NCBI RefSeq assembly: GCF_031624495.1 | Contig: NZ_JAMQOP010000005.1 | Span: 1 to 64,000, forward strand | From: Halogeometricum sp. S1BR25-6 | GTDB taxonomy: Archaea > Halobacteriota > Halobacteria > Halobacteriales > Haloferacaceae | Direction: 5' to 3' | DNA: 64,000 nucleotides | In this document: in pieces, positions 13,375 through 38,100 of the stretch | How the letters are laid out: the number at the start of each line of letters is the position of its first letter | How positions within the stretch are numbered: the stretch's first letter is position 1 | Translations under genes and position numbers: made by a program | The notes under the pieces: model-generated | What the model was told of the DNA's origin: nothing | Database searches by the model: none | The model's input: only the letters and a program-made list of their open reading frames with translations

Positions 13375-13427
13375 GTCATCCAAGGGGGGTCTCTGCTGGA
13401 GAAGAATCTACTGAATTGAGCGAGGCT

Positions 13428-13727: not shown

Positions 13728-13739
13728 TTTAGTGATTTG

Positions 13740-14045: not shown

Positions 14046-14056
14046 GTTTCTCGTTC

Positions 14057-14086: not shown

Positions 14087-14246
14087 CTCTATCGACGAGA
14101 GGAGGAAATCCGTGGATAGCGGTACATCTGGCACACCATATTTCACGGGTCTATGCTCTCGAGATGAAGACAGTTGGCGGTCGTTCCCTACCGTTTCACT
14201 CCGACTAGCGACCAATGAATACCGTCATATAGAGGACACCCCACCG

Positions 14247-15241
14247 TGTCCGCATAATTTGGTAATATGAGCGCCAGATGCTTGCTTATCCCATTTTTTA
14301 TTAGCGCCAGTCATTCAGAATCGCAGGACCGATGAGGACACCCCTATCGATTTGTTCTACATCGTCTCCATCTCCCAAAAATCCGAGAATAATATCGTAA
14401 AGTCGTAATATATGAGAGATAATTCAGATCACTGTCTCTCTCATTACTTCCATCGTGTCAAGCTTCGTTCGAGAGGGTTCTTTCCCGTGAGAACAAATCG
14501 ATAAGGGTGGGCCTCCGCATCCCGGTGATTTGAATATAATTCACTGGCATCCACGTCACTGGAGCGTCGACGCGCACAATCCCCGTGCCCCCAATGACAA
14601 GACGATTTGAGTATATAGCTCTAGTTAACCAACGAGAAGACGTGTTTTGGTAGTTTTGTTGGTTAAGAACACTGGTCACCGCTCACGGTCGATTTCGAGC
14701 TTCTGGATAGCTTGTTCGAACACACCCGGATGACGATGGGAATTCTCAGGATGACCCCGAATGGACTGCGCTGGTAGACGTCTACATCATCCGTATCCTA
14801 GAGTCAGAATTGTTGGGATACCCCCCTGTGTCCGCATAACCTTCTGAGGAAGGGCTATAGATATCGGAGGAAAAGAACCCCCACCCCCCACCATGTCCGC
14901 ATAAACACTCGAAACATGTTTGGACGTTTCCCCCTGTCCCCCCACCATGTCCGCATAAACACTCGAAACATGTTTGGACGTTTCCCCCTGTCCCCCCACC
15001 GTGTCCGCATAATTTGAACGCAAGAACGTCAGACGTCTCGACTTACGTCGATTCCTCGCTAGGAGCAGTTGATTTTAATTTGAGGGATTAACTACTACGG
15101 ACCAACTAGTTTCTTCATCACTTAGTTCTTTGCCTATCCTAGTTCTATCACCGGGAATTTGCGAGAGGATAGGTTCTCGGTCCGAAATTATGCGGACACA
15201 GTGGGGGGAGGGGGTATTAAACCAATCCAGCTATGCGGACA
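14247..15241. other. Replication origin with inverted initiator-binding repeats
   Basis: Seven copies of TGTCCGCATAA flank the initiator gene. Five are direct (14247-14257, 14829-14839, 14894-14904, 14948-14958, 15002-15012). Two are inverted, TTATGCGGACA at 15188-15198 and a one-mismatch copy at 15231-15241. Most have a run of C (or G in the inverted copy) beside them, as haloarchaeal origin recognition boxes do. Between the two clusters, 15060-15110 is A/T-rich (TTGATTTTAATTTGAGGG), a likely unwinding element. The orc1/cdc6 gene lies directly downstream. This matches the usual haloarchaeal origin layout, with a repeat core specific to this initiator. Confidence 0.85.
14879..15012 (+). repeat. 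54-bp tandem repeats carrying initiator boxes
   Basis: A 54-bp unit runs from one CCCCACCATGTCCGCATAAA core to the next (cores at 14894, 14948 and 15002) and includes CACTCGAAACATGTTTGGAC. The first two units are practically identical and the third keeps only its core. The spacing of 54 bp, about five helical turns, places the initiator sites on the same DNA face. Confidence 0.9.
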
Positions 15242-15300
15242 CACTGGACACTCCGGACGAGGGGGCTTTATATGCATTCGTGTTATTGGTGCTGCACAAG

Positions 15301-16578
15301 ATGGCGGATGATGAAACGGGTTCGGGGAATCCCTACGGTTCACTCGACAGCAATCCCTACGGTACGTCTGTTGAGATTTTTGCCGATGAAAGCGTTCTCA
15401 AGGAAGATTGGCAACCCGAGCAACTTCCCGAGCGGGAACCTGAGCTCGAAGAGATCAGGAACGCTCTCGCCCCTGCAACACGAGGAGTTAACGCACATAA
15501 CCTCTTTCTCTACGGGAAAACTGGCCAAGGAAAAACGGTAGCAATCGACCACGAAATCGAGTTACTGCAAGAGTATGCCAACAGTAGTGACGATCTCAAT
15601 CTAAGCGTCGTCAAGACCAGTGCGAACAATCAAACAACGAGCTATCAGCTCTGCGCTCATCTCATCAAGGAGATTCGTGGTGGGACGAAGAAGCCGAGTG
15701 GGATCGACCAGCAGTCAATGTTCGATCTCCTATACCAAGAGATTAGCAGTCTCAAAGACACAGTTATCATCGTCATTGACGAAATTGATGCTATCGGGAG
15801 TAACGACGAACTCCTATATGAGCTCCCGAGAGCACGGAAAAATAGCCACATTGACGATCAATGGGTGAGTGTTATTGGGATTAGTAACAACCTTCAATTC
15901 CGAGATAACCTCTCGCCAAAAGTCAAAGATTCTCTCTACGATTCAGAGATTGAATTTGCTCCGTACAACGCCAATCAGTTGACTACCATTCTAGAGCGGC
16001 GGGCAAAACGCGCGTTTGTCGATGGTGTTCTCGATGGCGAGGTCATTCCGTTGTGTTCTGCGTTCGCTGCTCAAGACGAAGGCAGTGCTCGGCAAGCTAT
16101 CCGTCTCTTGTATAAGGCGGGTGAGTTGGCCCTTAATCGCGATGACGAAGCCGTGTATGAACCGCATGTGCGTGAAGCTCGCGATATCCTTGAACGGAAA
16201 CGAATCGAAGAAGGAATGCGGAGTCTGACGACACAGGATCTGTTCGCACTTCTCTCTATCGTAGCACTTGAGATCGACGAAGAGACACCGGCCCGGACGC
16301 GCCAAGTATTTCAGAAGTACAAATCAATTGTCGAGAGACTTGATGGGAACCAACTCGTTGAGCGCCGCGTCCGCGACCATCTCCAAAGTCTCGGAATGCA
16401 GGGATTCCTCCTTGCTGAAACCCGGAACACAGGTATTCAAGGTGGATCTCACTACCGATTCGAGCTGAAAACAGATCTTGAAGCTACTCTTGATATCCTT
16501 GGTGAAGACGGCCGCATTGATGATGTCGTTGAGGATCTATTTAATATTGCGTCTGCGAAGAGACTAATCTCTAATTGA
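15301..16578 (+). CDS. orc1: Orc1/Cdc6 replication initiator
   Basis: This 425-aa AAA+ ATPase has Walker A GKTGQGKT at 72-79, Walker B VIIVIDEIDAIG at about 150-161, sensor 1 VIGISNN and the arginine-containing lid region (DEGSARQAIRLLYKAGELA). The C-terminal part is the winged-helix origin-binding domain. It should bind the TGTCCGCATAA repeats upstream and load MCM. The start is taken at ATG 15301 (MADDETGSGN). An in-frame upstream start at 15130 would read through the inverted initiator boxes and is unlikely. Binding of the box at 15231-15241, 60 bp before the start, could also autoregulate the gene. It is probably the plasmid's own initiator. Confidence 0.95.
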   Translation: MADDETGSGNPYGSLDSNPYGTSVEIFADESVLKEDWQPEQLPEREPELEEIRNALAPATRGVNAHNLFLYGKTGQGKTVAIDHEIELLQEYANSSDDLNLSVVKTSANNQTTSYQLCAHLIKEIRGGTKKPSGIDQQSMFDLLYQEISSLKDTVIIVIDEIDAIGSNDELLYELPRARKNSHIDDQWVSVIGISNNLQFRDNLSPKVKDSLYDSEIEFAPYNANQLTTILERRAKRAFVDGVLDGEVIPLCSAFAAQDEGSARQAIRLLYKAGELALNRDDEAVYEPHVREARDILERKRIEEGMRSLTTQDLFALLSIVALEIDEETPARTRQVFQKYKSIVERLDGNQLVERRVRDHLQSLGMQGFLLAETRNTGIQGGSHYRFELKTDLEATLDILGEDGRIDDVVEDLFNIASAKRLISN

Positions 16579-16812
16579 AGTCACGTATATCAATGCTGTG
16601 TCTGTTAATTTCCAATTCTCACCCGGGAAATATTATCCCACGAGTTGAATCCTAACGCTGATTTCAGCATAATTCAAGGTGGAGCCTCCGGCCTCAAGGA
16701 GCGAACAACGTGAGCGAGTTGGCCGGAGAGGAAACAGACATGGTACGACGTAACCGGCGTACTGCGACTGACCGACCCCGACGTATAAGTACTGTTGGGG
16801 CTTCTCTGAAGT

Positions 16813-17430
16813 ATGGACGTGCGTCGAACTGCCGTCGTGAAACTCGCCGTTTCCGACGAGCAACGCGACGCACTCCACCAAACCGCCGAGCAATACCTGT
16901 ACTGCGTGAACCGAACCGCCGACTACTGTTGATCCGATACCTCGTACACCGAGTGCAAGACCAACAAACGGCAAGTTCGGGACGCGCTCTACTCCGAACT
17001 CCGAGAGGAGACGAACTTACAGGCACAATTCGTCCAAGCCGCCATCAAACGCACCGCCGAAGCCATCAAAGGCGTTATCGAACGATAGAAAAAGGGATCG
17101 CGCGTCTCCCGTCCGACGTTCACCGATGAGACGATGGACTACGACACCCGGAGCGCGACCTTCTACTGAACCACGTGTCGCTGGCAACCGTTGAGGGCCG
17201 GGTCGAACCATCGTTCATCCTCCCGGCAGACAGCCCGACGCCTTACGAGCGGTACGTTCTCTCCGAGAACTACGAGTTCCGTGAGAGTACGTTTCGGTAC
17301 GACGCGGCGACTGACGAGTTCTACCTTAACATCTCGACTCGGCGGACAGACGGCGTTGACGAGACGCATTGCGTCTCATTCGCACACCAGACCGCTCCGT
17401 GTTCTGGGGACGTTGAACGACAAGAATCAC
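16813..17430 (+). pseudogene. IS1341-type TnpB relic
   Basis: The frame from ATG 16813 reads MDVRRTAVVKLAVSDEQRDA and continues as the N-terminal third of a haloarchaeal TnpB. It has TGA and TAG at expected Trp codons (near 16936 and 17087) and a frameshift near 17165 into LATVEGRVEPSFILPADSPT and ATDEFYLNISTRR. The RuvC catalytic core and the zinc finger are deleted. The right end of the element follows at 17450. TnpB is an RNA-guided nuclease, but this copy cannot be active. Confidence 0.85.
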
Positions 17431-17449
17431 CAGCCTATTGTCGGAGACT

Positions 17450-17525
17450 GATTGCCGGGAGTCCACATCAAAGCCCCTCCCTCAAGGACCGAGGCGCTTT
17501 GCGCCGAGGGAGTAGGGTGGGGTAG
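17450..17525 (+). ncRNA. 3' end of the TnpB-associated (omega-type) RNA and element right end
   Basis: A compact nested stem-loop sits here. CTCCCTC (17477-17483) pairs with GAGGGAG (17506-17512) around an inner hairpin GGCGC (17493-17497) / GCGCC (17501-17505), followed by AGTAGGGTGGGG. Haloarchaeal IS1341 elements end in this kind of structure, and a sense RNA overlapping the tnpB 3' end is known there. Whether it is still transcribed without a full tnpB is unknown. Confidence 0.55.
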
Positions 17526-17703
17526 CTTACTGAATCTGCACGGTTTGAGCGGTAGCATAGAATCCTTGTTGCGGAGAGTGAAACTGATATAATACTTAGA
17601 TTGAATATGTTAGATGTTTCCAAGCAGGAATCCCGTTTCTAAGCGTGGGCACCGTTTGTAGTGATAGAAAGACTCTATATACTATGAGAAGCAGATGATA
17701 CAC

Positions 17704-18540
17704 ATGACTGAGTCGGTGTTTCCCTTTCCGGGAGGGAAGGCATATCTCGCTCCTTGGATTATAGAACATTTTCCCCCTCACAGCTGCTACGTGGAAGTAT
17801 TTGGGGGCAGTGGAGCTGTTCTCGTTACGAAAGAATCCAGTCACACGGAGGTTTACAATGACCAAGATGGTGATCTGGTTCAGTTCTTTAAGATTCTCCG
17901 TGAACGCGAAGAAGAACTAGTGGAATGGCTCGATAAGGTGCCTTACGCTCGAGAGCAGCATCAAGAATGGAAAGAAGATTTCTACTCTGGTGAACGTCCG
18001 GACGATCCTATTGAACGAGCAGGCCGATTCTTCTACCTTCGATATTCACAGTATGCATCGAAGTACCGGACAGCCTCTGGTTTTGCAGGTGCTCATCAAC
18101 GTAACAAGGCCCGAAAGCTTCGTAACGCAACCGAGGACCTACACAAGTTCGCCAAACGCTTCCGGAACGTCCAGATCGAGAACTTAGACTTTGAGGAAGT
18201 GATCACTCGCTACGACAGTGATGATACACTATTCTACTGCGATCCGCCGTACATGGATGAGGGTGATGCTCTCTACCGTCACGGTGAATTCGAACATGAA
18301 CGTCTTGTGGACGTGTTGGAGGAGACTGATGGGAATTGGTTGGTTTCCTATCAGCGTCTGCCTGAACGTCTTCAAGAGTATACTGTGGTCGAGAAAGGCC
18401 GCTCACAGTTCATGAACAAACAGCACGATAACAACACTCGGTCCACCAAGGTCACCGAGCGACTTGCGATGAACTACGATCTCAATAAAACCGGAAAATT
18501 CCAGACTGGCGAACAGCAAACCCTAGACGACTCCTATTAG
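17704..18540 (+). CDS. DNA adenine N6-methyltransferase (Dam/D12 class)
   Basis: This 278-aa enzyme has the SAM-binding motif region FPFPGGKAYLAPWI, motif I-like YVEVFGGSGAVLV at about 30-42, and the catalytic motif IV DPPY within FYCDPPYMDEGDALYRHG. It should methylate adenine N6 in a short palindrome. The order and size match D12-class methylases. The ATG at 17695 is also possible; TATA-like CTATATACTA at 17672-17681 suits a leaderless transcript. A Mrr-type nuclease gene follows 185 bp downstream, so it may protect host DNA, or it may be an orphan. A relic of a second copy lies at 31505-31690. Confidence 0.9.
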   Translation: MTESVFPFPGGKAYLAPWIIEHFPPHSCYVEVFGGSGAVLVTKESSHTEVYNDQDGDLVQFFKILREREEELVEWLDKVPYAREQHQEWKEDFYSGERPDDPIERAGRFFYLRYSQYASKYRTASGFAGAHQRNKARKLRNATEDLHKFAKRFRNVQIENLDFEEVITRYDSDDTLFYCDPPYMDEGDALYRHGEFEHERLVDVLEETDGNWLVSYQRLPERLQEYTVVEKGRSQFMNKQHDNNTRSTKVTERLAMNYDLNKTGKFQTGEQQTLDDSY

Positions 18541-18725
18541 CGACTAGAGGCTGCTGAATGTTTGCTTGAGTACTGTTGGAAGGTATTCTTCTAATTCTGA
18601 TGCCTGCAGTACTTTCATCTCTGAGGATTGATCCTCAAAGGATTTTGATTAAGACGTATGGATCAATGCCGCTGTCACAGTCATAGTAAGACTTTCTACT
18701 GTTGGCTTTCTGTAGGGAGCAACGT

Positions 18726-19694
18726 ATGCAGTTTAGCAAGCAAGAAATTATCTCTTCTTTGTCAAATATGGACGTATATGAATTTGAACACTTCGTCGCC
18801 GATCTTTGGGAACGACAGGGATGGGATACTCAAGTGACTCAGGGATCAAATGACCGCGGAATTGACGTAGTCGCTGAGAAGAGTTCTCCTTTCCCCCAGA
18901 AACATCTTATACAGGCCAAACGGTACGCTAAGGACAATCGGATCGGAAGTCCTGCGATTCAGCAATACAATAGTTTGCGTCAGCAAGAATCCGGTGTTGA
19001 TGCCGTTGTTATCGTTACTACGAGCTCGTTTTCACGGCAGGCTCGACAGACGGCCCATGACTTGAACGTTAAGACGATTAATGGCGATGATCTTTACAGC
19101 ATCATTGCGAATACGGAGGCTGCTAATATTCTCCAGAAATATGTGGATCTGGGGACGGATGAAGATTCTTCTCAAAATATAAATGCAGATGCTAAGCGTG
19201 GTGCTACGGAAAAGACGCATAAGGAAAGGGCTGATGTCTTAGCTGATCAGGCATTAGACGATTCTGTAACTAAAAAACGACTGAACCAAGTTGGCGAGAC
19301 CATCTTTGGGAGGGGATATTTGAGTGAAAAGCCGGCGATAAACTACTTTGATTCTGATGAGCAGCCTCACTACTTCTTCCATAATGAAAGCAAGGGCCTT
19401 ATGGAAGGCAGAAAACGGATTAACAACGGATGGGGCGGTAATTTTCGGAACACGATGTGGGTAACGGATAAGGGAATTCATTATTTTGTTGTGCTGGATT
19501 CCGAGGATTATCACCGATTTGTGCCGTATGCGTCTATGAAAAACTGTAGGTCAAGTACAGGGATAACGAAAAACCGAGTTGTGATCCGAGAGGGCAATAT
19601 AGAGTATGACTTCGTAACTGATCCTACCGAAGATGTAGATGATGCTGAAGCATACATCTGTAAAAAAATAAATGAATCTCCGGGTTCAGAATAG
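18726..19694 (+). CDS. Mrr-type restriction nuclease fused to a PH-like domain
   Basis: This 322-aa protein starts at ATG 18726 behind GGGAG. Residues 15-150 are a Mrr catalytic domain: FEHFVADLWERQGWDTQVTQ, GSNDRGIDVVA with D47, and HLIQAKRY with Q63 and K65. After a polar linker (150-205), the C-terminal part reads like a bacterial PH-type domain: PHYFFHNESKGL, FRNTMWVTDKGIHYFVV, RFVPYASMKN. Mrr enzymes cut methylated or foreign DNA. The PH-like module may give membrane or partner binding (inference). The same kind of domain occurs in the membrane protein at 45959-47110. Its codon and base use is AT-rich. Confidence 0.85.
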   Translation: MQFSKQEIISSLSNMDVYEFEHFVADLWERQGWDTQVTQGSNDRGIDVVAEKSSPFPQKHLIQAKRYAKDNRIGSPAIQQYNSLRQQESGVDAVVIVTTSSFSRQARQTAHDLNVKTINGDDLYSIIANTEAANILQKYVDLGTDEDSSQNINADAKRGATEKTHKERADVLADQALDDSVTKKRLNQVGETIFGRGYLSEKPAINYFDSDEQPHYFFHNESKGLMEGRKRINNGWGGNFRNTMWVTDKGIHYFVVLDSEDYHRFVPYASMKNCRSSTGITKNRVVIREGNIEYDFVTDPTEDVDDAEAYICKKINESPGSE

Positions 19695-20320
19695 GTTACA
19701 GATATCCCTCACGACTGGCGATCAGTATTATCCCAATTGGATATTGATATCTCGATATAGAGTCCTATCTCTTGTCTTCAGGAAATCAGTCGGCTAGTGT
19801 GGTCTAGTACCTTTGTCACTTTGCCAGACGTAGCCGCCGAGGATTGCCTCGCAATTGCGGTAGACAAGTTGTCTGGAACTCAGGTTTAGCTGATCCTCTG
19901 ATTTATACTCTGGTTCAACTTTCGATTTGATTAGATAGACGATGTTGAAGGCGGATCGTCTCGACTACACTACTACGATCGCCGTTCAGGAACACGAGCT
20001 ACGGTATGCTATCCGGCAGGTGATGAAAGACCGAGGACTTGCTGAAGCAGAAAGCAACCGACAACGAAGATTTCACGCATGAACTTACTGCTCTGGATAA
20101 AGTTCAGGCGAGATTGACGAGTTCGTTGATTGAGCAGCCAACTCGAAATTAAAGAATACAGAATGAATTCGGTGAAGGAAATGTTCTGTGAATAGGAATT
20201 CCAAAGACTGATCGGAATACATTTGGACTCTACTTGCTAGTGTTGGTTCATAAATAATACCTATATTAGTTAGAAAACAACAATTAGTTATTTTATTTTT
20301 GATTTCCATTTGCCAAATGC
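19695..20320. other. Gene-poor AT-rich stretch
   Basis: No secure gene is seen. A 46-codon frame at 19942-20082 (MLKADRLDYTTTIAVQEHEL onward) is a possible small protein or gene fragment, but it has no recognised relative. The right end (20255-20300) is very A/T-rich and probably holds the promoter of the exported PKD protein. Confidence 0.35.
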
Positions 20321-25119: not shown

Positions 25120-26280
25120 TCAGTCGGCCAGTTGTTCGCTGTTGTACTCTGCCAGGGCTTCTGGATATGCCTCGACGATACGGGGATGCCAAAGCTTGAT
25201 CATTTCAACGTATTCTTCGATGTACTGGTTCACTGTTTCATCAGCTAACACTGCATCTGCGATTTTCTCAGGTGTTGTGGTGTCCCAGTTGATTCCGGCC
25301 ACCGCAGAATCGATATCTGCTTCTTTGAGTATAGTGCGGTAGATTCCGCTCTTGTACTCAAAGTCCGATCTAACCTCATCTTGGTAGCTTTTCAGTATCT
25401 CTTCAGTGACTTCGTCGTATCTGCGTTGTACGGAGATTCTTAGAATCCCTCTTGTAGGCAATACGTTGAAGCTGAATGCGAATTGTTCGTCGTCATCTAA
25501 GTGATCGGATGAACCATTGGGGTGGTGAGACACCAGAGCTAAACTATTCAGATCCTCCATCAGTTTATTCAGAAGCTCCGTAGGGTCATCTATTGTACCT
25601 CCTCCTAATTCGTCGACAACCTCAGCCTGGATTTGATCGAAGACACGTTGGAAGGTTGGTGTCCGATACTTCGGATCGGGGCTGGGCTTTCCATCTGTTT
25701 CTGAATGACCGGTTTCTGAGTCTTCGGTCAGTACGTTCCGTGTAGTTAGAATCCGAGATTCTTCCTCTGAGTACACGCTATATTCTATGCAGAATATACT
25801 GTGATCTTTGTCCTGCAGGTATCGGGCTACGCTTAGAACACGGTCGGAGAACCGCCCTGCGAGCAGAATGATTTTTTGATCGTTGTTGAACGCAGTTTCA
25901 GGCCGTGGGTTGTCAAGGTCGAAATAGTCTGCGTGAGCTTTCCGCAGTGAGTCTGTGCGTCCAATATAGCTCTGGAATTTGTGTTCAAGTGTTGCGTAGG
26001 GTTGTTCCCACTGGTGGTGGTCGCTGGCGTACTCGACGGCTTGTGCGACCATTTTCCGCGGGCTTCGGTTGTGTTTGAGTTCGAGAGTAACTGTGTTTCC
26101 TTTCTTGTCTACTCCAATGAGATCATATCTCTGCCCTTGGTCGGTATGTCCTTGTTGGTGGACGAGGAAGATGTCGATACCGCCGATTGTAATGCCCGGT
26201 CCTTTGCTTAGCCAGTTTTCGATGGTGGCTTCGCTGCTCAGTTCGTCGCTTCTGAGTTGTGTTAGTCCGTCTTCTGCCAT
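25120..26280 (-). CDS. NucS-like PD-(D/E)XK nuclease, last gene of the ATPase operon
   Basis: This 386-aa protein (start MAEDGLTQLR at 26280) has a NucS/DUF91-type N-terminal nuclease core: RYDLIGVDKKGNTVTLELKH with D53, E67 and K69, then the helix KMVAQAVEYASDH. The remaining 250 residues lack a known motif. They include FAFSFNVLPTRGILRISVQR and a helical end. It lies 162 bp downstream of the RpoH-domain ATPase gene on the same strand, so it may be the effector nuclease of that group. The GTG at 26295 is an alternative start. Confidence 0.8.
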   Translation of the reverse strand: MAEDGLTQLRSDELSSEATIENWLSKGPGITIGGIDIFLVHQQGHTDQGQRYDLIGVDKKGNTVTLELKHNRSPRKMVAQAVEYASDHHQWEQPYATLEHKFQSYIGRTDSLRKAHADYFDLDNPRPETAFNNDQKIILLAGRFSDRVLSVARYLQDKDHSIFCIEYSVYSEEESRILTTRNVLTEDSETGHSETDGKPSPDPKYRTPTFQRVFDQIQAEVVDELGGGTIDDPTELLNKLMEDLNSLALVSHHPNGSSDHLDDDEQFAFSFNVLPTRGILRISVQRRYDEVTEEILKSYQDEVRSDFEYKSGIYRTILKEADIDSAVAGINWDTTTPEKIADAVLADETVNQYIEEYVEMIKLWHPRIVEAYPEALAEYNSEQLAD

Positions 26281-26442
26281 CCGATGAAGTTCCACCGATT
26301 ATTACATTCATTTAGTCTTTAGAAAACGGTTTCTGCTATCTCCATTTTCTGATTCACGATAACTGTGATTGAGGCTGCAGAGGAGGACTACTCTGAAACT
26401 CGTTGGAGGATCACACATCAGCGCACTCTATTTTTGGAGGAA

Positions 26443-27957
26443 CTATTGCTGCTCCAAGTAGTCGAGATATGCTCGGAATGCGGGAGATTTCTGCTCAAGG
26501 AATAGGTCTGCTGCCTTTTCGAAGCCGCCTAATTCCTCGATCGCAGTAGCGTACTCACGATCGATTGGTGAATCAAGAGCTTGTTCCTCGAGATCAACAA
26601 TCCGCTTTGAGAACTCGATCAAGTCTTCCCTACTAGGACTATCAAGTAAAATTCGGTTCTCCACACTTCGCTCATAAAGCGGCCGGTAAGTCTCTCGTAG
26701 TGCATTTCCTTCCTCTCCACCTTCTAGGAGCTCCGGAGTTCCTGTAACGAACAAACAGACGTTCCCCGGAAGGTCGTCGAGGAAGTCGTCAATTGCTTTG
26801 AAGTGATCCTCCGTACGAACGGATTTCTCTAGTTCGTCGACACCGAGCATTACTCGATATCCATTGATGCGCGCAAGTGAACTCATGATTCCAATCACGT
26901 CCATTGCTTCAGAAGAACCGATCTCATCAAGGAGGGTTTGGCTCAGACTTTGATGGCTAGTGTTGAAATACTTCCTTGCAGTTCCTGCCACCTCGTCGAT
27001 GACTGCTTGGGGTACGTCCGCTTCTGAAAGGATATCTTGTGCAGCTAGTTCGAGAGAAGTCTTCATTCGATCCTCTCGAACCTCGAATCCTTGGCCTTCA
27101 TAACTAGCAGCACAGAGATCTGCTACTTTCCGGAGAGTCGTATCCCATAGTTCATCCAGTCCATTCGCGTAATTTGAGTGATCATAAGAGCGAGGAGTCT
27201 GCAAATTCGTCCGGAAAGCCTCTACAAGTGATTCCCGGTTCAAGAAATTGGTTTCATCATCAATATCAATCAGGCTGACAGCGCTCCATGGGAGTACCTC
27301 GTCACGAACCCAATGCACGAAGAATGATTTTCCATACCCGAGTTCTCCCTCAACAAATGTATACGGATCTGCTGACTGGATCTTCTCGATTGCAGTTTCG
27401 ATATCTGTTTCGCGATCAACAGCAATTTGCCGGCACGTTCCTGGTTGGGATGGTGGAATGTGTGCCCGGAGATTCTCAACGATATGAAGAGCTTGTTCGT
27501 CGCTAAGCGCTGACTCCTGTGAATATGTCTGTTCGGTTGGTCCAGCAGGATTTCGCCACTCTGCATTGGCTGCACTACCGTTGAGATTGCCGGATCTAGA
27601 GATTACTAAACGGTAATTCCGGGCAGTGTCTGTGGTTCTGCTATCACGAATTATCTCAATGACATCGCCTACTCCGCAGGTCAGATGCTGGATTGCAGGA
27701 TCACTTTCTTTAATTAGTGGAAGATCTGTCCGCTCGATCGAGTATTCTCTGCAGAGTTGCGTGACTCGTTCCTCTGGTACGACTCGATGTTCTGGGACTA
27801 ACGAGTGACTGAGGATGGGATTCTCTGCACCCTTTCCAGACGTTGAGAGCCACTCCTCTCGGACTTCGACTCGATCGATTAGACAATGTGGACAGTATAT
27901 TGCACCGCTAACAACTCTGCTGCTGCATTCCGAGCACGTCTCCAGATAGACACTCAT
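26443..27957 (-). CDS. Zinc ribbon - RNA polymerase subunit H-like domain - P-loop ATPase fusion
   Basis: This 504-aa protein has three parts. Residues 8-25 form a CxxC-x10-CxxC zinc ribbon (C8, C11, C22, C25). Residues about 50-120 read as archaeal RNA polymerase subunit H (the C-terminal domain of Rpb5): SHSLVPEHRVVPEERV, YSIERTDLPLIKESDPAI and GDVIEIIRDSRTTDTA. Residues 195-504 are a P-loop ATPase with GELGYGKS at 204-211 and Walker B-like VMLGVDELEK. Its P-loop GYGKSFF is shared with the neighbouring ATPase. Subunit H normally sits at the RNAP jaw, so this protein may dock on RNA polymerase or mimic that subunit (inference). It is the third gene of a leftward operon. I know of no described protein with this architecture. 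Confidence 0.85.
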   Translation of the reverse strand: MSVYLETCSECSSRVVSGAIYCPHCLIDRVEVREEWLSTSGKGAENPILSHSLVPEHRVVPEERVTQLCREYSIERTDLPLIKESDPAIQHLTCGVGDVIEIIRDSRTTDTARNYRLVISRSGNLNGSAANAEWRNPAGPTEQTYSQESALSDEQALHIVENLRAHIPPSQPGTCRQIAVDRETDIETAIEKIQSADPYTFVEGELGYGKSFFVHWVRDEVLPWSAVSLIDIDDETNFLNRESLVEAFRTNLQTPRSYDHSNYANGLDELWDTTLRKVADLCAASYEGQGFEVREDRMKTSLELAAQDILSEADVPQAVIDEVAGTARKYFNTSHQSLSQTLLDEIGSSEAMDVIGIMSSLARINGYRVMLGVDELEKSVRTEDHFKAIDDFLDDLPGNVCLFVTGTPELLEGGEEGNALRETYRPLYERSVENRILLDSPSREDLIEFSKRIVDLEEQALDSPIDREYATAIEELGGFEKAADLFLEQKSPAFRAYLDYLEQQ

Positions 27958-28088: not shown

Positions 28089-29276
28089 CTACATTAATCG
28101 AGATTCGATTACGTCAACAAGCGTCCGTGATTCCTCTCTTCCCTCTGGAGTTAAGAGCAGTCGACGTGGACTTAGTTCGTTTATTCCATTATGGTTGTCT
28201 GCTGCGTCTTCAACGATTTCACTGATCTCCTTCTTACTGAGTGACGACGATTGGCCATATGCCACATTGATTAGGTCCGTCACCTTTGAAACCAATTCCT
28301 CATAGTCCTCCTCCGTCAGTTTACTCAAGACGAGCTTCTTGGCTCGATACCGATCCTGGAGAGCCTGATGCCCCGCCTCATCAATAAGAGAGTTCCACTT
28401 CTCTTCGTTTCCTACGAAAACGAACATCATATGTTCGAATTGGCCCTTCTGATAGCACTTATTATAGAGATCAATTAGCCGCTGAGTAGTCTCCGAATCT
28501 GGATTCCATTCGAGCTGTTCAGCTGCCTCATCAATGAGAATAACGAACCCGCTGTATCCTAACTCAAGTGCGAGAGAACGAAGATGACGGAGATACTCAT
28601 ACTCATTTTCTTTCGTTACGTTGTCGAATCCTTTCTTACCGATTGCGTGAAGCTCCTCAAGTGAGATATCCTCTCCCTGTAGGTAACCGCTCACAGCACT
28701 CAACACTTCAACCCGATCTAGGGTGACATCTTCTTGTTTAACATGGAGATGCCCTGTTGCCCAGGCGTCGAGTAAATTCCGTAGGATACGGTGAATCGAA
28801 TGTCCGAAAAAACCGCGCTCAGACGCAACGCGATCGAAGTCATTCCGAGAAACATTCTCACAGAATTTTCGGAGAAGTGGAGTAACTCCCTTCCCTTTCT
28901 CATCAGGATATCTGATGTTTTGTACGATTCCTTTGTAGAGTTCACCTTTATCAGAGATAGTCTCCAGATCTTGGATGTCAAACTCGGACCGAATAAATCC
29001 TACCTCGCTCGCTCGATCGGCTATTAGATTGATGAAAAAGGATTTGCCGTATCCGAAGTCACCAAGGACAAAGAAGATCTGTCCACTTCCGCGCTTGACA
29101 CTCTGAAGGCTCTCAGTTGGCTTTTCACAAATTCGCCGTTCTTCTTCCTCTCTTCCGACACGGATGTATTTGATGTGCTCCGGGTTCGGGGGCACCCCTT
29201 GCTGAATCCTCGTCAGGATATCGATGGCAGTGTCTTGATCGACTTGATGAGAGTCATCAGCATCTTCAAGCGACAT
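28089..29276 (-). CDS. BrxD-like (DUF2791-type) P-loop ATPase
   Basis: This 395-aa protein (start MSLEDADDSHQ at 29276, behind AAGGAC) has Walker A GDFGYGKS at 72-79, Walker B VILIDE at 245-250 and a sensor-like strand MMFVFVGNEEKW. The overall plan matches the ATP-binding BrxD/DUF2791 proteins of BREX-type loci, whose role in defence is established but whose mechanism is not. The upstream 711-aa gene ends 13 bp before its start, so they form an operon. It and the RpoH-domain ATPase share the GYGKSFF loop and are probably paralogous partners. Confidence 0.85.
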   Translation of the reverse strand: MSLEDADDSHQVDQDTAIDILTRIQQGVPPNPEHIKYIRVGREEEERRICEKPTESLQSVKRGSGQIFFVLGDFGYGKSFFINLIADRASEVGFIRSEFDIQDLETISDKGELYKGIVQNIRYPDEKGKGVTPLLRKFCENVSRNDFDRVASERGFFGHSIHRILRNLLDAWATGHLHVKQEDVTLDRVEVLSAVSGYLQGEDISLEELHAIGKKGFDNVTKENEYEYLRHLRSLALELGYSGFVILIDEAAEQLEWNPDSETTQRLIDLYNKCYQKGQFEHMMFVFVGNEEKWNSLIDEAGHQALQDRYRAKKLVLSKLTEEDYEELVSKVTDLINVAYGQSSSLSKKEISEIVEDAADNHNGINELSPRRLLLTPEGREESRTLVDVIESRLM

Positions 29277-29289: not shown

Positions 29290-31425
29290 CTATAACGGCT
29301 CTTGTAACTCCATCGCAATATATCTGTCACCCTGAACTTTCACACTTCCATGCTGGTCGCTTCCCTTTCGATGGAACGAGACGTCCCATTCACGCAAACG
29401 GGACATGTACTGCTCAGTTCCCAGCAGTTCTCTAATCTCAGCTTCGACATCTTGCTCAGGGGTATTGAATACGCGCTCGATATTCGGTAACGCGAGGCTA
29501 AATTCAATTATATCATCGAAGTAAACGAGATCTCCCTGCCCGAATTCGGCGACATCAAGATATGCTTCCGTGGTCGCGAAGAGGAGATCCACTTTGTTTT
29601 CTCGGGAGACTTCGGTTTGTTGCACCTGGGTGTTTGTCCCAAGGTGGTCGATTACTGCGCTTACAGTATTTGTTATGGTGGCTGCACGGACACGGGAATC
29701 ATTGACGTAGACCTCACTGTAAGGGAGGAGAGTCTCAATTACTACCGTTCGCGTCTGTCGGCTATCCGGTTCGATGGTGATTGTGATCTCTTGACCGGAT
29801 CGAGTCTCTTGACGTTTAATTGACAGATTTTGATCATTAGTGACGCTTTGACGGAGCTCCTCAATTACTCCGTTACAGTAGTGCTCCCACGCGTTCTCAA
29901 TGTCGCGTTCAAGTTTATAGTACAGCGCTTCGTCAGCAGGATCTTCTGGATCAAGCGAGTGCTGTAGATCTTGTTTACGTTCAATCGCACCAACGCCTCC
30001 TTGCTTCGTTATCTTGTAATCAGAAAGGATGGCTGACCAGTGTTCATCGTACCACTCCTCCTCGTACTTCGCGCCGGTTATCTTCTGTTTCCCCGTCTCG
30101 CTGCGTATCTCAGACGGAGGAATGAGAGGAGAAAGATTCTGCCGACGTCGGTGTCGGTGGAGGAGTGCATTCTCGACAAGCGAGTCTGAGGTAGTCCCCA
30201 GAGACCCACTAAGCTTACTGAATACTTTTGTAAGCTCTTGCCACCGTTGCTCCGAAACAGGTTCTGCATCAAGGAACCGTTCTATCCAATCAATTAACTC
30301 CTCTTCCGGAGTAGAGGTTCGTGCAGGGAGATTACAAACGTACGGCTTGGCCGATGGCCCTTCGTGGTGAAGACGGAACTCATGGTTGCTCTCATCGTCT
30401 TTTCGCGTCACTTTGACTTCAGGGAATGAGCTACGCCGAGATCGGTACTTATCGTAGTTTGGGTGTGAGCTAATTCGCTGCTCCCATAATTCATCAAAGC
30501 GCTTCTGGTTGAATGACTTCTTTGAGTAAGCCCTCTGCAACCCCCCAATGACAGAGTTCTTGAAATGACGTGCCCAGAGCTCATCGGGGAGATCATATGC
30601 TGTCACACTTGCTGGACGGACTACCTTCTCAACAACACGGTTGTCAGCAACATCATATCGGAGCCGATCATACCATTCGTCGACAGCAGCTACAATTTCT
30701 TCATCGACGTCGAACTGGCCACCTGCGACAGATTCAATGGAGAATGAGCCAACACTCCGAAACACGTTTTCCACGATTGTCTCTTCGTCAGGGCCCCCGA
30801 CGGGGGCGACAAGTGCGACATCAAGACCCATGAGGAGGAGTTGCTGGAGATTTCGGCTCGCTCGGAGGAATGATTGACTCTGTTTGATGTCTGAAAGGGG
30901 CTCTGTGGCTGTGAAGATGATCCCGCCGTACGTGTCTCGGTCACTAATTTCTTGATTTCGGGCGGCAATACCGACTGCAGCAGCGAGATCGTCACGCGTG
31001 AATTGGTGTTCATCCCACTGATCGATCGCTTTTTGGATTTGCTCAGTCAGGTCGATCCCGATAGTCATTGGATCGCCGAGAACTGCAGATTCGTATGGAT
31101 CAGCATTATACCGCCTAAACTGTGACTCAAACTCGTTTTCGAGGACACTCTCGTTGACCTGCTCGATTCGATCTTGGAGGTAGTCACGGTACGTGTCTGA
31201 GAGGTCCTTTCCCCATCGTGAGCCGACTTTTCCTTGCTTCAGCAGAGAATCAAATAGAGTCGGTTCGGCTAATTGTTCGAGACTAAGTGTCGTTTGTACA
31301 CCCGGTTGTTCATCTAAAACGGCTGATTTCTCCCGCAAGAGGTCGTCAACTGCCTCGTTGTCCGACACCAAATAGAACACTGCTTCTGGAGTCGAAGCAA
31401 AGAGCCCAAACTCTCCTTCAGTCAT
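29290..31425 (-). CDS. Large unrecognised protein, first gene of the ATPase operon
   Basis: This 711-aa protein starts MTEGEFGLFASTPEAVFYLV. Predicted helices alternate with strands, and there is no P-loop, zinc site, membrane segment or nuclease motif I can defend. Features include LMGLDVALVAPVGGPDEET (about 200), a basic region YRSRRSSFPEVKVTRKDD, and a C-terminal beta-rich part with TRTVVIETLLPYSEVYV and DLVYFDDIIEFSLALP. The size and its position ahead of two ATPases suggest a scaffold or recognition subunit (inference). An in-frame start at 31470 adds 15 hydrophobic residues, but no SD supports it. Confidence 0.8.
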   Translation of the reverse strand: MTEGEFGLFASTPEAVFYLVSDNEAVDDLLREKSAVLDEQPGVQTTLSLEQLAEPTLFDSLLKQGKVGSRWGKDLSDTYRDYLQDRIEQVNESVLENEFESQFRRYNADPYESAVLGDPMTIGIDLTEQIQKAIDQWDEHQFTRDDLAAAVGIAARNQEISDRDTYGGIIFTATEPLSDIKQSQSFLRASRNLQQLLLMGLDVALVAPVGGPDEETIVENVFRSVGSFSIESVAGGQFDVDEEIVAAVDEWYDRLRYDVADNRVVEKVVRPASVTAYDLPDELWARHFKNSVIGGLQRAYSKKSFNQKRFDELWEQRISSHPNYDKYRSRRSSFPEVKVTRKDDESNHEFRLHHEGPSAKPYVCNLPARTSTPEEELIDWIERFLDAEPVSEQRWQELTKVFSKLSGSLGTTSDSLVENALLHRHRRRQNLSPLIPPSEIRSETGKQKITGAKYEEEWYDEHWSAILSDYKITKQGGVGAIERKQDLQHSLDPEDPADEALYYKLERDIENAWEHYCNGVIEELRQSVTNDQNLSIKRQETRSGQEITITIEPDSRQTRTVVIETLLPYSEVYVNDSRVRAATITNTVSAVIDHLGTNTQVQQTEVSRENKVDLLFATTEAYLDVAEFGQGDLVYFDDIIEFSLALPNIERVFNTPEQDVEAEIRELLGTEQYMSRLREWDVSFHRKGSDQHGSVKVQGDRYIAMELQEPL

Positions 31426-31504
31426 TATCAGAGACTGGACGAGATAGAGGTAAAAACTATTGATAGACATCGCTGCTTATGGATCGTGATCATAGACGAG
31501 TCTT

Positions 31505-31800: not shown

Positions 31801-34800
31801 GTGAGCAACAGTATCGTTTTTGCTGGACCCGACCCGGCTGCTGCTGAACGTGCTGCTATGGAAGCAGCAGCAGCTGATTCGTCAGGCCTTCCACAGAGTA
31901 TCCTTCATATATCGCCGCGACTTGACCGGCGTGACACTGTCCGTGAACGGTGGGAACAGTTCGGTCCATCGATGGCTCTCTATCAGACGTCGTTCGACCA
32001 GCTCGTAGAGACCACGCTCCAACGTGTGGAATATCGTACTGCCAGTCAACATATCGACCGGGCAACTCTAAACCGCCTTGTAGAGGTTGCAGTCACCAAC
32101 TTAGACATCTCTAACAATCGGTTTGCTGGGAGAACGAGTACTCCAAGTAGTGGATTCTGTGACGAGGTTTCGAATTTCTTCACCCTACTCGAGTATGCTG
32201 AATTGTTCTCGGCAACTGATGTCCGAGCCCGGTTCGCTGATCTCGGTCTCGAGGAAGAAGCCGAAGAAGTTGCCGGATTTGTCGATGCAGTGATTGACGT
32301 TCGCAATACTGTTGTTCCTGAGAGAGACTTTGCGTCTGAGCGTCTCCGTGATGTCGCTGCAAATCCTCGTACGCTCCATGAAGCGTTCCCAGCGGTCGAC
32401 GCAATTGTTCTTGACGGGAGTACTATCTATACACGAGTTGAGCGCGTTCTACTTGAAACGCTTGCTGACCAATGGTCAGTCTACGTTATCCTCCCGACGA
32501 TTAGTTCGAGAGAAACAGAGTGTGGTGAGCACTTTACAATCGACGACTACCAGACTGGGCTTGATGCTGGGATGCAGCGAGCGGCACGTGTTTACGATGA
32601 ATTAGAGTTCTCCGTCGAGTATATCCCGCAGACGACTCACTCGAGAACACATACCATCGACGTCCTTCGGTCACTCTTTAACCGACAGACTCCGGATACT
32701 GAAGCTCTCCCATCACATATCTCTGTTTTAGAGCCAGAAACACGACGCATCGAACTGCGGCGGCTTACGAAACGTGTTCGTAGTCAACTCGCTGACGGCA
32801 GTAACCCCGAGGATATTGGTATTGTTCTTCCTAGCGCTGAACAATACTCTCAGGAACTAATCGAACTCCTGGATCTACACGAGATTCCATACGGACTCAA
32901 TATTCAAGTTCCCCTTTCAGAGACTGCAGCTGGGAATCTCCTTTTCGATGTTCTCTCACTCATCGAGAATCCGTCAGCGCTGGATACACTACGCAACTTA
33001 TTCTCTAATCCGCTTTTTACTGGCTTAGCGGAAACTGAGATCGACCACATAGCAGTACAGCAAATTGCAGATCGGCTCCCGTTGCCATCGTTGGAGCTTG
33101 CACTCGAGCGGTTCCCAAATGAGACCGCAGCCCACATCGAAGAGCTCTGCACTCGACTCGCAGACATTCCAAGACAGACGCTCGATGAGACTCTTACGTC
33201 ACTCAATGATGTTCTCGATGAGATCGCCATCACTGACCCAGAACATCTCAGCGATACCTCGCTCTCGAGTTCTCGTCGGTCACGTGAACAACAGGCACTT
33301 CAGTGCTTTGAGCAGGTTCGGCAATCTCTCAGGTGTGTTGCCAACACAGTCGAAGTCGGAGACACTGAACCAGTAACGTGGATTGAGCGTGCACTCTCTG
33401 ATCAGTCGGTCACCGTTCAAGAATCGACAACCGGGGCTGTCGGAATTGTAGACCTCTCCGAGATACGACTCCGCGACTTTGATTACGTCTTTGTCCCAGG
33501 TCTTACAACCGACAATTTCCCTTCAACGACGGATCAACTCTCCTATCGAGCATCGCTTGCGGAAGCGGATGCAGACTTCAGGGACCCAGATCGAAGTGCT
33601 ATTGCTCGACATCGACTTGCGACGCTTCTCGTCGGATGTAAGGAGGCTGTTCTCTCCACGCCTGCACGTGATGATGAGGGACGACCACATGTCATGGCGA
33701 GGTTTCTCGATGAGTTGTTGACGGTGACTGATACTGGCCCGACGCCGATTACTTCCAGCGAGATTGCTCATCGGGAAGATGTTCAGCGATCCATCGCATC
33801 CAGCGTCAGTCATCGCCCGGATCTAACCGCTGATGAGCTTCTTCAGAGAGTCGCTGAGACGTCAACATTCACTGATGACCATCAAGTGCGGATTGAGCGC
33901 GGATTTAGCTGTGCGCATGCACGGCAACGAGACGAGCTAACTGAATATGACGGTCAGCTTGATATGGCGGCAGTCGACACGCTTCATCCAGCGTCGACTC
34001 GGGAGCCGTATAGTCCAAGTCGGCTTGAGACGTACGCTACTTGCGGATTTCGGTACTATCTAAGCCACGTCTTGGAGTATAAGCCCGCGGACCCAATCTC
34101 ACTAGATCCAGACTATAAAGACCGCGGCAAACTCATCCATAATACGTTCGATCGGTTCTATCGGGCACTCCGGTCTAATGCGGATGAACCAGTGACGGTT
34201 TCCGAGTCGGACTTCGAAGATGGTCATCTTGAGTCACTCCTTTTAGAGTCGTTCACTGCTGCACTGGATGACATTCCAACGTATGAGACCACCTTCACTA
34301 ACGGGTTGCTTCAACGGATTGCGGCTGGACTTGGTGATCCCGAGACGAACGATTACTATGGTCTCCTGGAAGAAGACGGTCAAATGACGGGAGTTCTGAA
34401 ACGATTCCTCAAAAAAGAGTTAGAGCTCCACACAGGGACAACAGTCAAAGCGAGATGGCTCGAAGCCGACGTTGGTACTGACAGAGACCATCAAGGTGAC
34501 CTTCTCAGTAGGACTTCGGCGACGGTCACTTCACCAGACGGGACAGAGATTACACTTGCCGGGCAAATCGACCGAATCGATGTTGATGAACACGGTCATG
34601 CAGTTGTTCGCGATTATAAGACAGGATCCGATAATAACGTCCCCAACCAAGACAGTACTCTCAAGGGACGTCGATTCCAGCTTCCGATTTATGCGCTTCT
34701 CGCCGAGCATGGTGATCAGGAGACAGAGGTAGTTGGTGGGGCATACTATCAGGCTCGCCCACCAAATGCTGCAAAACATACGAAAGGCGTTATTGGCTCT

Positions 34801-35166
34801 GAGGAGCACGCAAAACACCCTAGAGCAAAGGGTTCACCAACCCCTCTCTTCCGGTATTCGTCTGCAGGGTTCGAAACGCACGCAGAGTTCAGAGAGTTCC
34901 TTAACCACGTCACAACTTCACGACTAGCGACGTTGACGAACGCACTCGAACACGGACATTTCCAACCCACGTTCCTCTCTGAGGATGCTGCAGGTTGTGA
35001 ACACTGCCCCTATAATGATGTCTGCGATGTTCGTCACTACAATCGCTCTGATCGAATTGAAAAGTCCCTGAAGCTCGGAGTAGGGGTCTATCTCCCGGAA
35101 GCAGCAACAGACGACGAATTCTCACTTGAGAATTACTCCGCGACGGATCCCGATGAGGTGCAATAA
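31801..35166 (+). CDS. AddB-like helicase-nuclease subunit
   Basis: This 1121-aa protein starts at GTG 31801. The N-terminal half is the degenerate helicase fold of AddB/RexB proteins; where the P-loop is expected it reads AGPDPAAAERAAM, so ATP binding is improbable. The C-terminal quarter is a RecB-type nuclease: SPSRLETYATCGFRYYL, RGKLIHNTFDRFY, AGQIDRIDVDEHG, VVRDYKTGS and RRFQLPIYALL. One Cys before the nuclease and three at the end (GCEHCPYNDVC) can hold an iron-sulphur cluster, as in AddB. The next gene starts on the base after its stop, so the pair is coexpressed. It should resect DNA ends together with the AddA-like subunit. Confidence 0.85.
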   Translation: MSNSIVFAGPDPAAAERAAMEAAAADSSGLPQSILHISPRLDRRDTVRERWEQFGPSMALYQTSFDQLVETTLQRVEYRTASQHIDRATLNRLVEVAVTNLDISNNRFAGRTSTPSSGFCDEVSNFFTLLEYAELFSATDVRARFADLGLEEEAEEVAGFVDAVIDVRNTVVPERDFASERLRDVAANPRTLHEAFPAVDAIVLDGSTIYTRVERVLLETLADQWSVYVILPTISSRETECGEHFTIDDYQTGLDAGMQRAARVYDELEFSVEYIPQTTHSRTHTIDVLRSLFNRQTPDTEALPSHISVLEPETRRIELRRLTKRVRSQLADGSNPEDIGIVLPSAEQYSQELIELLDLHEIPYGLNIQVPLSETAAGNLLFDVLSLIENPSALDTLRNLFSNPLFTGLAETEIDHIAVQQIADRLPLPSLELALERFPNETAAHIEELCTRLADIPRQTLDETLTSLNDVLDEIAITDPEHLSDTSLSSSRRSREQQALQCFEQVRQSLRCVANTVEVGDTEPVTWIERALSDQSVTVQESTTGAVGIVDLSEIRLRDFDYVFVPGLTTDNFPSTTDQLSYRASLAEADADFRDPDRSAIARHRLATLLVGCKEAVLSTPARDDEGRPHVMARFLDELLTVTDTGPTPITSSEIAHREDVQRSIASSVSHRPDLTADELLQRVAETSTFTDDHQVRIERGFSCAHARQRDELTEYDGQLDMAAVDTLHPASTREPYSPSRLETYATCGFRYYLSHVLEYKPADPISLDPDYKDRGKLIHNTFDRFYRALRSNADEPVTVSESDFEDGHLESLLLESFTAALDDIPTYETTFTNGLLQRIAAGLGDPETNDYYGLLEEDGQMTGVLKRFLKKELELHTGTTVKARWLEADVGTDRDHQGDLLSRTSATVTSPDGTEITLAGQIDRIDVDEHGHAVVRDYKTGSDNNVPNQDSTLKGRRFQLPIYALLAEHGDQETEVVGGAYYQARPPNAAKHTKGVIGSEEHAKHPRAKGSPTPLFRYSSAGFETHAEFREFLNHVTTSRLATLTNALEHGHFQPTFLSEDAAGCEHCPYNDVCDVRHYNRSDRIEKSLKLGVGVYLPEAATDDEFSLENYSATDPDEVQ

Positions 35167-38100
35167 ATGGTTGACTTTAACGATCTTACGACCCAGCAAC
35201 AGCAAGCTGCAACGGCACTTGAACGAAACCTCTCACTTACAGCCGGTGCTGGAACTGGCAAAACAACCACCCTGACGCAACGGTATATAAAAATGCTCGA
35301 GCGGGGGATCGAAGAGGATCCTGACGAGCCAATTACACCGACGGAAATTCTCGTTACCACGTTCACTCGGCGTGCTGCAAACGAATTACAAAAGAGTGTG
35401 CGCGAAGAGATTACAGCGAAGTTGGAGACGGATTCAGAGTTCTACGACCAATGGCTGGACATTGCTAACTCGCTCGAAGAGGGATACATCAACACGCTTC
35501 ATGGGATCTGCTCACGTTTCCTCCGCGAACATGCCCTATCTGTCGACAGTATTGACCCTGGATTCGAGACCCTAGATGAGGGTGAGACCGCACGCCTCAT
35601 TGAGGAGGTAACCGCTAGAACACTGGCAGATCTCGATCGCGAACGTCACGACGGTATCCAGGAGCTCACGCCCTACTACAGCCGACGAGAGCTTCAGTCT
35701 ATATTTGCGGATTTGCTCAGTAAGCGACCTGAGAGCACTGAATGGGCAACGTGGATGAGCGAGGTCGATAAAGAGACGTATCTTGAAGCTATTCGGCAGG
35801 AACTCCATCCGCTTGGTGCAGAGGAGGTGGCTGAAATTCTGTTCGACGATGGGTTTGCCCATGCCGTCGACCAGTTACAGAGTCTGCATGCAGCGCAGCC
35901 GTCTGTTGCAGAGACCAGTGATAAAGGTTGGTCGACATTGACAGACCTCCTTCGTCGCCTCGAGGCAGCTGGCTATCCGAACAAGAGTGCTCCACTGGCA
36001 GAGAAACAGGAACTCATCCAGTTGATCTGTGATGACTTTACAGGGTATAAAGGTGATCTACTCGCAGATTCCAATTTCGAAGGATCAGACAGTAATTGGA
36101 CCGGACTAGACGCAGAACGAGAACGTTTCCAAGAGGCGATGAATACGATCGTTGAGCAGATCGATCCTGAAGAGAATCTCCTTCGGTCTTCAATTGAAAT
36201 CGACGAACTGGCCTATCCCCTTGTTTCAGCACTTGCAACGACTTATCTTGAAGTGGCCGATACCTATCGTGCTGAGAAGCGTGCACGCAACGTCGTTGAT
36301 TATACGGACCAGGTTCAGTTCACGATTGACTTTCTTGAGTCACCGGACCACCAGGAGGCACGAAAGCGACTCTGTGATCAGTTTGAGTTCGTAATGGTCG
36401 ACGAGTTCCAGGATACAGACCCCCGACAGTGGGATCTGATTCGGTTGCTCACAAGCACGGATTCAACCGACTTCGACGCGCAGAACGTATTCGTGGTCGG
36501 TGACGAAAAGCAGTCTATCTATCGTTTCCGTAACGCTGACGTCACTCAGTTCGGTGAGATCACAACGCTCCTCGAAACCATAAACTCAAAAAATCTCGCC
36601 ACGACAAGCGAATCGAATGCGGACGATCAGCTCTCACAGAATTTCCGGACGCTCCAGAACTCTCTCTCGTTTATCAATGATCTTTTCGATGAAGTCTTTG
36701 AGGAGGCTGGACCGGAGTACGAAGCCTCACCACAGCCATTAGACGCTAAGCGGGAGGATCCAGAGCAACTTGATTCACTTGTTGAGTATCTCGTTGTCCC
36801 CACCGATGAATCACTCCGTGCTGATCTCTTCGAGCCTGGTCATCCCCTTCGTGATGCACAGCCGGAACATGATGCAGATCTTGAAGCTGAAGCACTCGCT
36901 AGCCGTCTGACCACGCTCTTCGAGTCTGGGCAGCAAGTATACGAGCCTGAAGGAACTGCAGAGTACGACAAAGGCGATGTCCGCCTTGTCGAACCATCGG
37001 ATGTCGCAATCCTGCTTCGGACACGGACGCATCTCAAGCGATTCGAACGAGCTCTTGATCGATACGACATCCCCTATACTGTCTCGTCGGGGATCGGCTT
37101 CTATGACACTCCTGAGATCACTGCTCTCTATAATCTGCTTCAGATCCTCGCCAATCCGTCCGACAGTATCGCCTTGTATGGTGTCCTTCGATCTCCTCTC
37201 TTTGGATTCACTGATTCGGAACTCGCTGCACTCGCTGAACCGAAAACAACACTCTGGTCTCAATTACAGTCATCAACCGAACCAGAGTTCGTAACGGCAA
37301 GGTCTCTCATTCAGTCGTGGCGCTCGGCGGCCGGTGTCGACGGAGACGGACCGACTGTCGACTCGTGGAGTCAGCTCCTCACCCAGATTATCGATGACAC
37401 AGGCTATCTAATCTCCATTAGCGCTGGCGATCGTCCACAACAGGCAGTTGCGAACGTGGAGAAGTTTCGAGATCAACTCCGCTCATGGAGCACGGACGGT
37501 TCCGCCAGTCTCACCACGCTTGTTTCCGAGATCCAGGAACGTCGCGAGCAGGACGATAAGGAAGGAGAGGGAGAGATTACGGGCGAAGCTGAGGGGGTGC
37601 AGATACTCACCGTCCACGATGCGAAAGGGGATGAGTTCCCCGTCGTCGCAGTTCCAGGGCTTGACCGTGAGTTTATGGATAAGGCGACTATCGCTAATGG
37701 AAAGATCGAGTTCGAGACAATCAACGGCACACCCGGAATCGGGATCAAGGGTCCAGATCCAGACGAACGGTACGACACTCAATGGACTATCGCTCGTGAG
37801 GGGCTTGCACGGCAGCGTCGTGCAGAGGAACGCGCTGAAGAGAAACGGACGCTCTACGTAGCGATGACCCGCGCACGCGATCATTTACTTCTGTCGAGTG
37901 TTCACAGCCTCGATAGTAATGTTGAGCCCAATGCGGGGCTCGCTGGTCTCGAAACCGTCGGCGATAGAGACCCGAAATCCTGGCGGGAGTTCGTCCAACC
38001 AGTCCTCTTTGATGGACTCGATCTCTCTGAACTCACAGTCGGAAATCCCATCATAGAGTCCCTCAAGAAGAGTACGTACCGTCTTTCGCTTCCCGATCAG

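Follow-up and report, generated by a model that had tools for sequence, protein, structure and literature searches.

A haloarchaeal fusion of an RNA polymerase subunit H domain with a BrxD-like ATPase, encoded within a conserved three-gene module

The first 64,000 nucleotides of contig NZ_JAMQOP010000005.1 from Halogeometricum sp. S1BR25-6 (referred to below as the window) contain a gene, here called C, whose product carries a domain of RNA polymerase (RNAP) inside what appears to be a defence-type ATPase. C joins a zinc ribbon, a complete RpoH domain (RpoH, or Rpo5, is the archaeal counterpart of the Rpb5 C-terminal domain) and a BrxD-like AAA+ ATPase, and in three haloarchaeal genomes it comes third in a fixed trio, in the order A (711 aa), B (395 aa) and C (504-505 aa). 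What would a polymerase subunit be doing in such company? Our answer, drawn from sequence comparison and slightly short of an even chance, is that the trio could be a defence-type AAA+ module in which a captured Rpo5 domain docks on RNAP. The parts of gene C, in window coordinates, are as follows.

26443..27957, minus strand: gene C (zinc ribbon, RpoH/Rpb5 C-terminal domain and BrxD-like AAA+ ATPase, 504 aa), recognized from its open reading frame (ORF), profile matches and two Halorubrum homologues
27883..27936, minus strand: zinc ribbon CSEC-x10-CPHC, aa 8-25, with cysteines invariant in the three genomes
27604..27816, minus strand: RpoH/Rpb5 C-terminal (assembly) domain, aa 48-118, matched by PF01191, by PRK09570 above its cut-off and by archaeal subunit H chains in the PDB
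26584..27495, minus strand: predicted BrxC/BrxD-type AAA+ ATPase domain, aa 155-458, from PF10923 and from HHalign to a B/SngB profile
27325-27348, minus strand: Walker A motif GELGYGKS, aa 204-211, conserved across homologues
26827-26853, minus strand: Walker B motif VMLGVDELE, aa 369-377, conserved across homologues

The ORF runs on the minus strand from an ATG at 27957 to a stop ending at 26443. Its RpoH part is complete: the PF01191 profile (RNA_pol_Rpb5_C) aligns from position 3 to 73 of 73 with residues 48-118, scoring 74.7 bits (E=4.8e-21) against a cut-off of 23.5 bits. C also passes the NCBIfam model NF007129 “DNA-directed RNA polymerase subunit H” (84.8 bits, cut-off 83), and its closest PDB chains are archaeal subunits H/Rpo5 (1hmj, E=1.2e-13; 4qiw_H, E=9e-13). 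In the zinc ribbon, CxxC-x10-CxxC (C8-C25), both the cysteines and their spacing are the same in all three genomes, and the Halorubrum laminariae copy has a weak match to Zn_ribbon_3 / Zn_Ribbon_1 (E=6e-5). The remainder, judged by its profile match and intact Walker A and B motifs, is an AAA+ ATPase of the BrxC/BrxD family: PF10923 (BrxC_BrxD) matches residues 155-305 with E=4e-9, and the region aligns to the neighbouring B and to SngB proteins with an HHalign probability of 97.4 (E 1.2e-11). A sensor-1-like FVTGTPE lies at residues 403-409, and the catalytic ATPase residues are kept in every copy of B and C. Since homologues are too few, AlphaFold models from three-sequence alignments reached a predicted local distance difference test (pLDDT) of only 34 for C and 38 for A, too poor for fold comparison.

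Halorubrum laminariae and Halorubrum alkaliphilum each encode a full-length homologue built from these three parts, at 72% and 71% identity, respectively. Between these two, the ratio of nonsynonymous to synonymous substitution rates (dN/dS) is about 0.1 throughout the protein, including the RpoH part (dN 0.013, dS 0.114), a low value which shows the RpoH part to be translated and under constraint. Together, the homologues and the ratios exclude an assembly or frame artefact as the source of the fusion. A preliminary description of the gene, made from the sequence alone, had placed an RpoH/Rpb5 C-terminal domain at residues of about 50-120, beside a CxxC-CxxC ribbon and a BrxD-like ATPase. All three assignments hold and the peptides it quoted are correct; the PF01191 search that it proposed is significant over nearly the full profile, and a survey of other genomes for the fusion yielded the two Halorubrum species. 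Its suggestion of docking on, or mimicry of, RNAP is partly supported, in that the strong conservation of universal RpoH positions would fit it. It had missed the conserved trio, with its second BrxD-like ATPase and its orphan, as well as the normal RpoH of the carriers. A separate rpoH is indeed encoded elsewhere in all three carrier genomes, so C is an addition and not a replacement.

In a tree built on 72 columns the three fusion domains group together as a single clade (support 100/97). A split with support 99/93 divides haloarchaeal RpoHs from those of other archaea, and the clade falls on the haloarchaeal side, its exact attachment not being resolvable with so few columns. One clade, on that side and on a long stem, indicates that a haloarchaeal-type rpoH was captured once, and not recently. 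The domain seems to have remained constrained much as an RNAP subunit is. We call universal the 22 positions at which conservation reaches 90% or more both in haloarchaeal RpoHs and in those of other archaea. Of these, 18-19 survive in the fusions, as do 12 of the 14 conserved positions specific to haloarchaea, compared with 11 of the 34 variable positions (Fisher P=2e-5). The RpoH part is moreover the slowest-evolving region of C, with 82% identity between the window and Halorubrum laminariae, compared to 74% for the ATPase and 55% for the zinc ribbon, a slowness that reaches P=0.05 against the rest of C and is not significant against the ATPase alone.

The partners of C are encoded immediately upstream on the same strand.

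28089..29276, minus strand: gene B, BrxD/SngB-like AAA+ ATPase, 395 aa (PF10923 E=1e-30; PADLOC SngB E=4.5e-22)
29290..31425, minus strand: gene A, 711-aa orphan, with a homologue of 64-65% identity in each Halorubrum locus
31451..31456, minus strand: TATA-like TTTTTA spanning -31 to -26 relative to the start of A, kept with its surroundings in the Halorubrum loci

B adjoins A and C in all three genomes and carries the motifs GDFGYGKS (Walker A) and VILIDEAAE (Walker B). Outside the trio, its nearest relatives, on plasmids, are Shango SngB proteins in loci made of a TerB protein, SngB and a DEAD-helicase. A lies upstream of B with a gap of 13 bp, and has no family match in any library scanned, TerB included. 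Because of the conserved TATA-like element about 31 bp upstream, A probably starts without a leader at ATG 31425; an alternative start at 31470 was rejected, as the element lies between it and that ATG. The gap between B and C is longer, at about 130 bp, and in Halorubrum laminariae a transposase-like gene (8778-9968 on the minus strand of its locus, L003) is inserted there with C left intact. From this gap and insertion, C may have its own promoter or be transcribed separately; scans for sigma-70 promoters and terminators gave chance-level results only.

How does this module compare to known systems? It recalls Shango in the match of B to the SngB model and in the similar size and order of its three genes. 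It differs in that the third gene is the RpoH-ATPase fusion, with no SngC helicase: the conserved block contains no SngC DEAD/DEAH helicase, and the AddA-type helicase nearby belongs to an AddBA pair. A was rejected as SngA, with an HHalign probability of 0.1% against three SngA proteins and no TerB match, and profile comparison also rejected it as SngC. B and C share with type 2 bacteriophage exclusion (BREX; BrxD + BrxHI) the ORC/Cdc6-like AAA+ domain of BrxC/BrxD (PF10923), for which a role in helicase loading or activation has been proposed in BREX (PMC12839542). BrxD is however described as a stand-alone ATPase with no added domains (PMC12839542), and no PglX, PglZ, BrxC or BrxHI stands beside the trio among the window proteins scanned; in Halorubrum, the conserved block is made only of a metallo-beta-lactamase (MBL) gene and A-B-C. 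By gene content the trio is thus neither Shango nor BREX. As for the polymerase part, C holds a complete homologous domain of the haloarchaeal type, but canonical Rpo5/RpoH is a small stand-alone protein, whereas in C the domain is embedded in an ATPase of 504 aa. There is also an analogy, of principle only, with TFS4, a paralogue of the transcription machinery, and with the viral ORF145/RIP, both of which act on archaeal RNAP around infection (PMC8448823, PMC5123050, PMC9501531); unlike C, these are stand-alone inhibitors without an AAA+ ATPase or Rpo5 domain. The preliminary description knew of no precedent for this architecture, and we found none in the family libraries or in the open-licence papers searched, where a fusion of an RNAP subunit to an ATPase goes unmentioned in work on BREX-related systems, on archaeal immunity and on the evolution of archaeal RNAP, although such an absence is no proof. 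The trio is best seen as a variant of BrxD/SngB-class modules with an RNAP-subunit fusion that is, as far as found, unprecedented.

Under our tentative reading, A-B-C would be a mobile and rare haloarchaeal module of defence type, with two different ATPases of the BrxC/BrxD class, in whose gene C an ancestral haloarchaeal rpoH came to lie between a zinc ribbon and an ATPase. The captured domain would bind the Rpo5 site on Rpo1C of the host RNAP, with C replacing or competing with normal Rpo5 on a fraction of the polymerases. Eukaryotic Rpb5 has an N-terminal jaw added to its assembly domain, and the zinc ribbon of C would sit at that jaw position, near the downstream DNA. The ATPase of C, presumably oligomerizing with B and joined by A, would hang on a flexible C-terminal linker, leaving the AAA+ pair and protein A tethered at the downstream-DNA side of RNAP, where ATP hydrolysis might act on the polymerase or on incoming DNA during transcription of a virus or plasmid. 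The more specific idea of a transcription-coupled immune module, with the AAA+ pair recruited to transcribing RNAP and foreign genes attacked or silenced there, is possible but somewhat unlikely.

Several observations favour docking or bear on how it would work. Some lie in the carriers themselves: the significant Rpb5_C match over the whole domain, the retention of universal and haloarchaea-specific RpoH positions, the slow evolution of the RpoH part, and the normal RpoH encoded elsewhere in each genome. RpoH corresponds to the C-terminal domain of Rpb5, an assembly domain that makes the contact with the largest subunit (PMC6690254), and its archaeal partner is A'' (PMC3906176). In archaea Rpo5 is a neighbour of the clamp head, at a site used by Rpo13 for docking in some species (PMC2675907), and Pyrococcus RpoH accepts an N-terminal His6/Strep tag (PMC3906176). 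The trio has been kept while neighbouring genes were exchanged, and B and C belong to the BrxD/SngB class, found in anti-phage systems. ATPases of the BrxD class have been suggested to place partner enzymes on DNA or to switch them on there (PMC12839542), so the module would be expected to act on RNAP or its template while foreign genes are transcribed.

Binding of RNAP by C nevertheless looks to be the weakest step of the proposal, and a number of points weigh against docking. The stem of the fusion clade measures 0.78 changes per site, far above the canonical branches; canonical RpoH copies keep 20-22 of the 22 universal positions, more than any fusion; and three positions invariant in canonical copies have changed (L69C, K81R/L, A94C), V118I being a further, conservative exception in part of the fusions. 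These changed positions, the fewer universal positions kept and the long stem suggest that C may bind RNAP with a different affinity or not at all. In most of the archaeal RpoHs compared, the protein stops only a few residues from the YRLVV strand, and the C-terminal extension of about 380 residues that follows the domain in C may clash. At the other end of the subunit, Pyrococcus strains with the yeast N-terminal Rpb5 domain (the jaw) fused to RpoH were unstable (PMC3906176). The fusion is known from only three genomes, and the trio is assigned to defence by association. The cysteines at residues 69 and 94 (canonical Leu and Ala) are fixed in all three fusions, and could bind metal, either together or with the zinc ribbon.

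Those same features, namely the long stem and the three changed invariant positions, two of which are now cysteines in all carriers, would fit an RpoH fold that parted from RNAP long ago and was repurposed as a protein- or DNA-binding adaptor within an A-B-C complex, without contact to RNAP. We consider this rather unlikely, because keeping 18-19 of the 22 universal positions, and 12 of the 14 specific to haloarchaea, exceeds what the fold by itself should require, as judged against a baseline of variable positions and not of buried core. Alternatively, the domain might be an integrated decoy, imitating RNAP without working on it, as a bait for a viral factor that seizes RNAP near Rpo5, the clamp or the jaw, whose capture would activate the AAA+ pair. 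Archaeal viruses do attack RNAP directly, ORF145/RIP binding within the DNA channel (PMC5123050, PMC8448823). Retention of both haloarchaea-specific and universal RpoH positions, a normal RpoH in the carriers and an ATPase joined to a host-like domain would all suit the logic of a decoy. A bait requires only an exposed face, yet the pan-archaeal positions are kept too, and the RpoH domain shows no sign of rapid arms-race evolution (dN 0.118, vs 0.178 for the ATPase part). We know of no haloarchaeal viral factor that binds Rpo5, and hold the decoy to be unlikely. It is very unlikely that C is an alternative Rpo5 forming a specialized RNAP isoform that regulates the replicon's own genes, for despite its complete RpoH domain above the NCBI subunit-H cut-off and the extra Rpb5 isoforms used by plants and trypanosomes (PMC6690254), C is always coupled to A and to a second BrxD-like ATPase, and its patchy, rare occurrence with exchanged flanks is typical of defence modules and not of housekeeping regulators.

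If C does dock on RNAP, it would represent a defence-type motor using transcription as its site of surveillance or attack, and would offer a genetic handle on what BrxD/SngB-class ATPases act on; were the transcription-coupled reading true, this would be the first immune system whose physical basis is a subunit of RNAP. A decoy would instead be a pointer to Rpo5-seizing factors of haloarchaeal viruses that are still unknown. The domain at residues 45-125 makes either reading directly addressable by pull-down. C is also an annotation trap: scoring above the NCBI subunit H cut-off, it can be labelled by pipelines as a core RNAP subunit.

The fusion is rare. Among 391 Halobacteria genomes searched, the ATPase part of C and protein A were found only in their own genome and in Halorubrum alkaliphilum; C is present in 2 of 52 Halorubrum species and in one of five genomes of the host genus, and no copy appeared in PLSDB plasmids, a phage collection or IMG/VR viral contigs. 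Two copies of Rpb5_C occur in only 3 of 247 genomes of the phylum, the other two (G501, G566) having stand-alone duplicates, not fusions. The two Halorubrum loci share the block formed by the MBL gene and A-B-C while their flanks differ, and the window shares only A-B-C with them. A type IIG restriction enzyme flanks the block in Halorubrum laminariae. In Halorubrum alkaliphilum the trio is followed, at 12697-19763 of its locus (L004), by proteins that read from their translations as QueC-, QueE- and QueD-like enzymes and relatives of tRNA-guanine transglycosylase, a flank resembling a 7-deazaguanine DNA modification island.

The window is part of a 353-kb contig with Orc1/Cdc6 and ParA genes, probably a secondary replicon rich in anti-virus genes. 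Defence-type neighbours include a prokaryotic Argonaute (pAgo), Mrr, a DUF4143 ATPase, type IIG restriction-modification and BrxD-class ATPases. Two neighbours were considered as additional parts of the module and rejected. An AddB-AddA-type helicase-nuclease pair (31801-38913, plus strand) diverges from the trio; all three carriers have it, although in both Halorubrum genomes it is not linked to the trio, and it is sporadic, being found in 8 of 20 haloarchaeal genomes searched (5 of 17 non-carriers, one by a weak partial match). The MBL protein, directly upstream of A in the Halorubrum loci, is not adjacent in the window, and was not counted because its relatives form a separate ATPase-VWA-MBL-Mrr module in other haloarchaea; in one of these (L107), that module directly adjoins AddAB. 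A DUF4143 ATPase, an MBL-fold protein, an Mrr-like nuclease, a long prokaryotic Argonaute (PADLOC pAgo E=2e-286) and a phospholipase D (PLD)-type nuclease occupy 47422-57929 of the window. Just 3′ of the trio, at 25120-26295 on the minus strand, lies a NucS/PDC-S11-like nuclease candidate that is not kept there in the Halorubrum loci. Further away, 17695-19694 (plus strand) encodes a putative Dam-type adenine methyltransferase, so read from its translation only, followed by an Mrr-type restriction endonuclease, and at the edge of the same island a gene at 753-1682 (plus strand) has a weak match to ArdC anti-restriction / IrrE-like peptidase.
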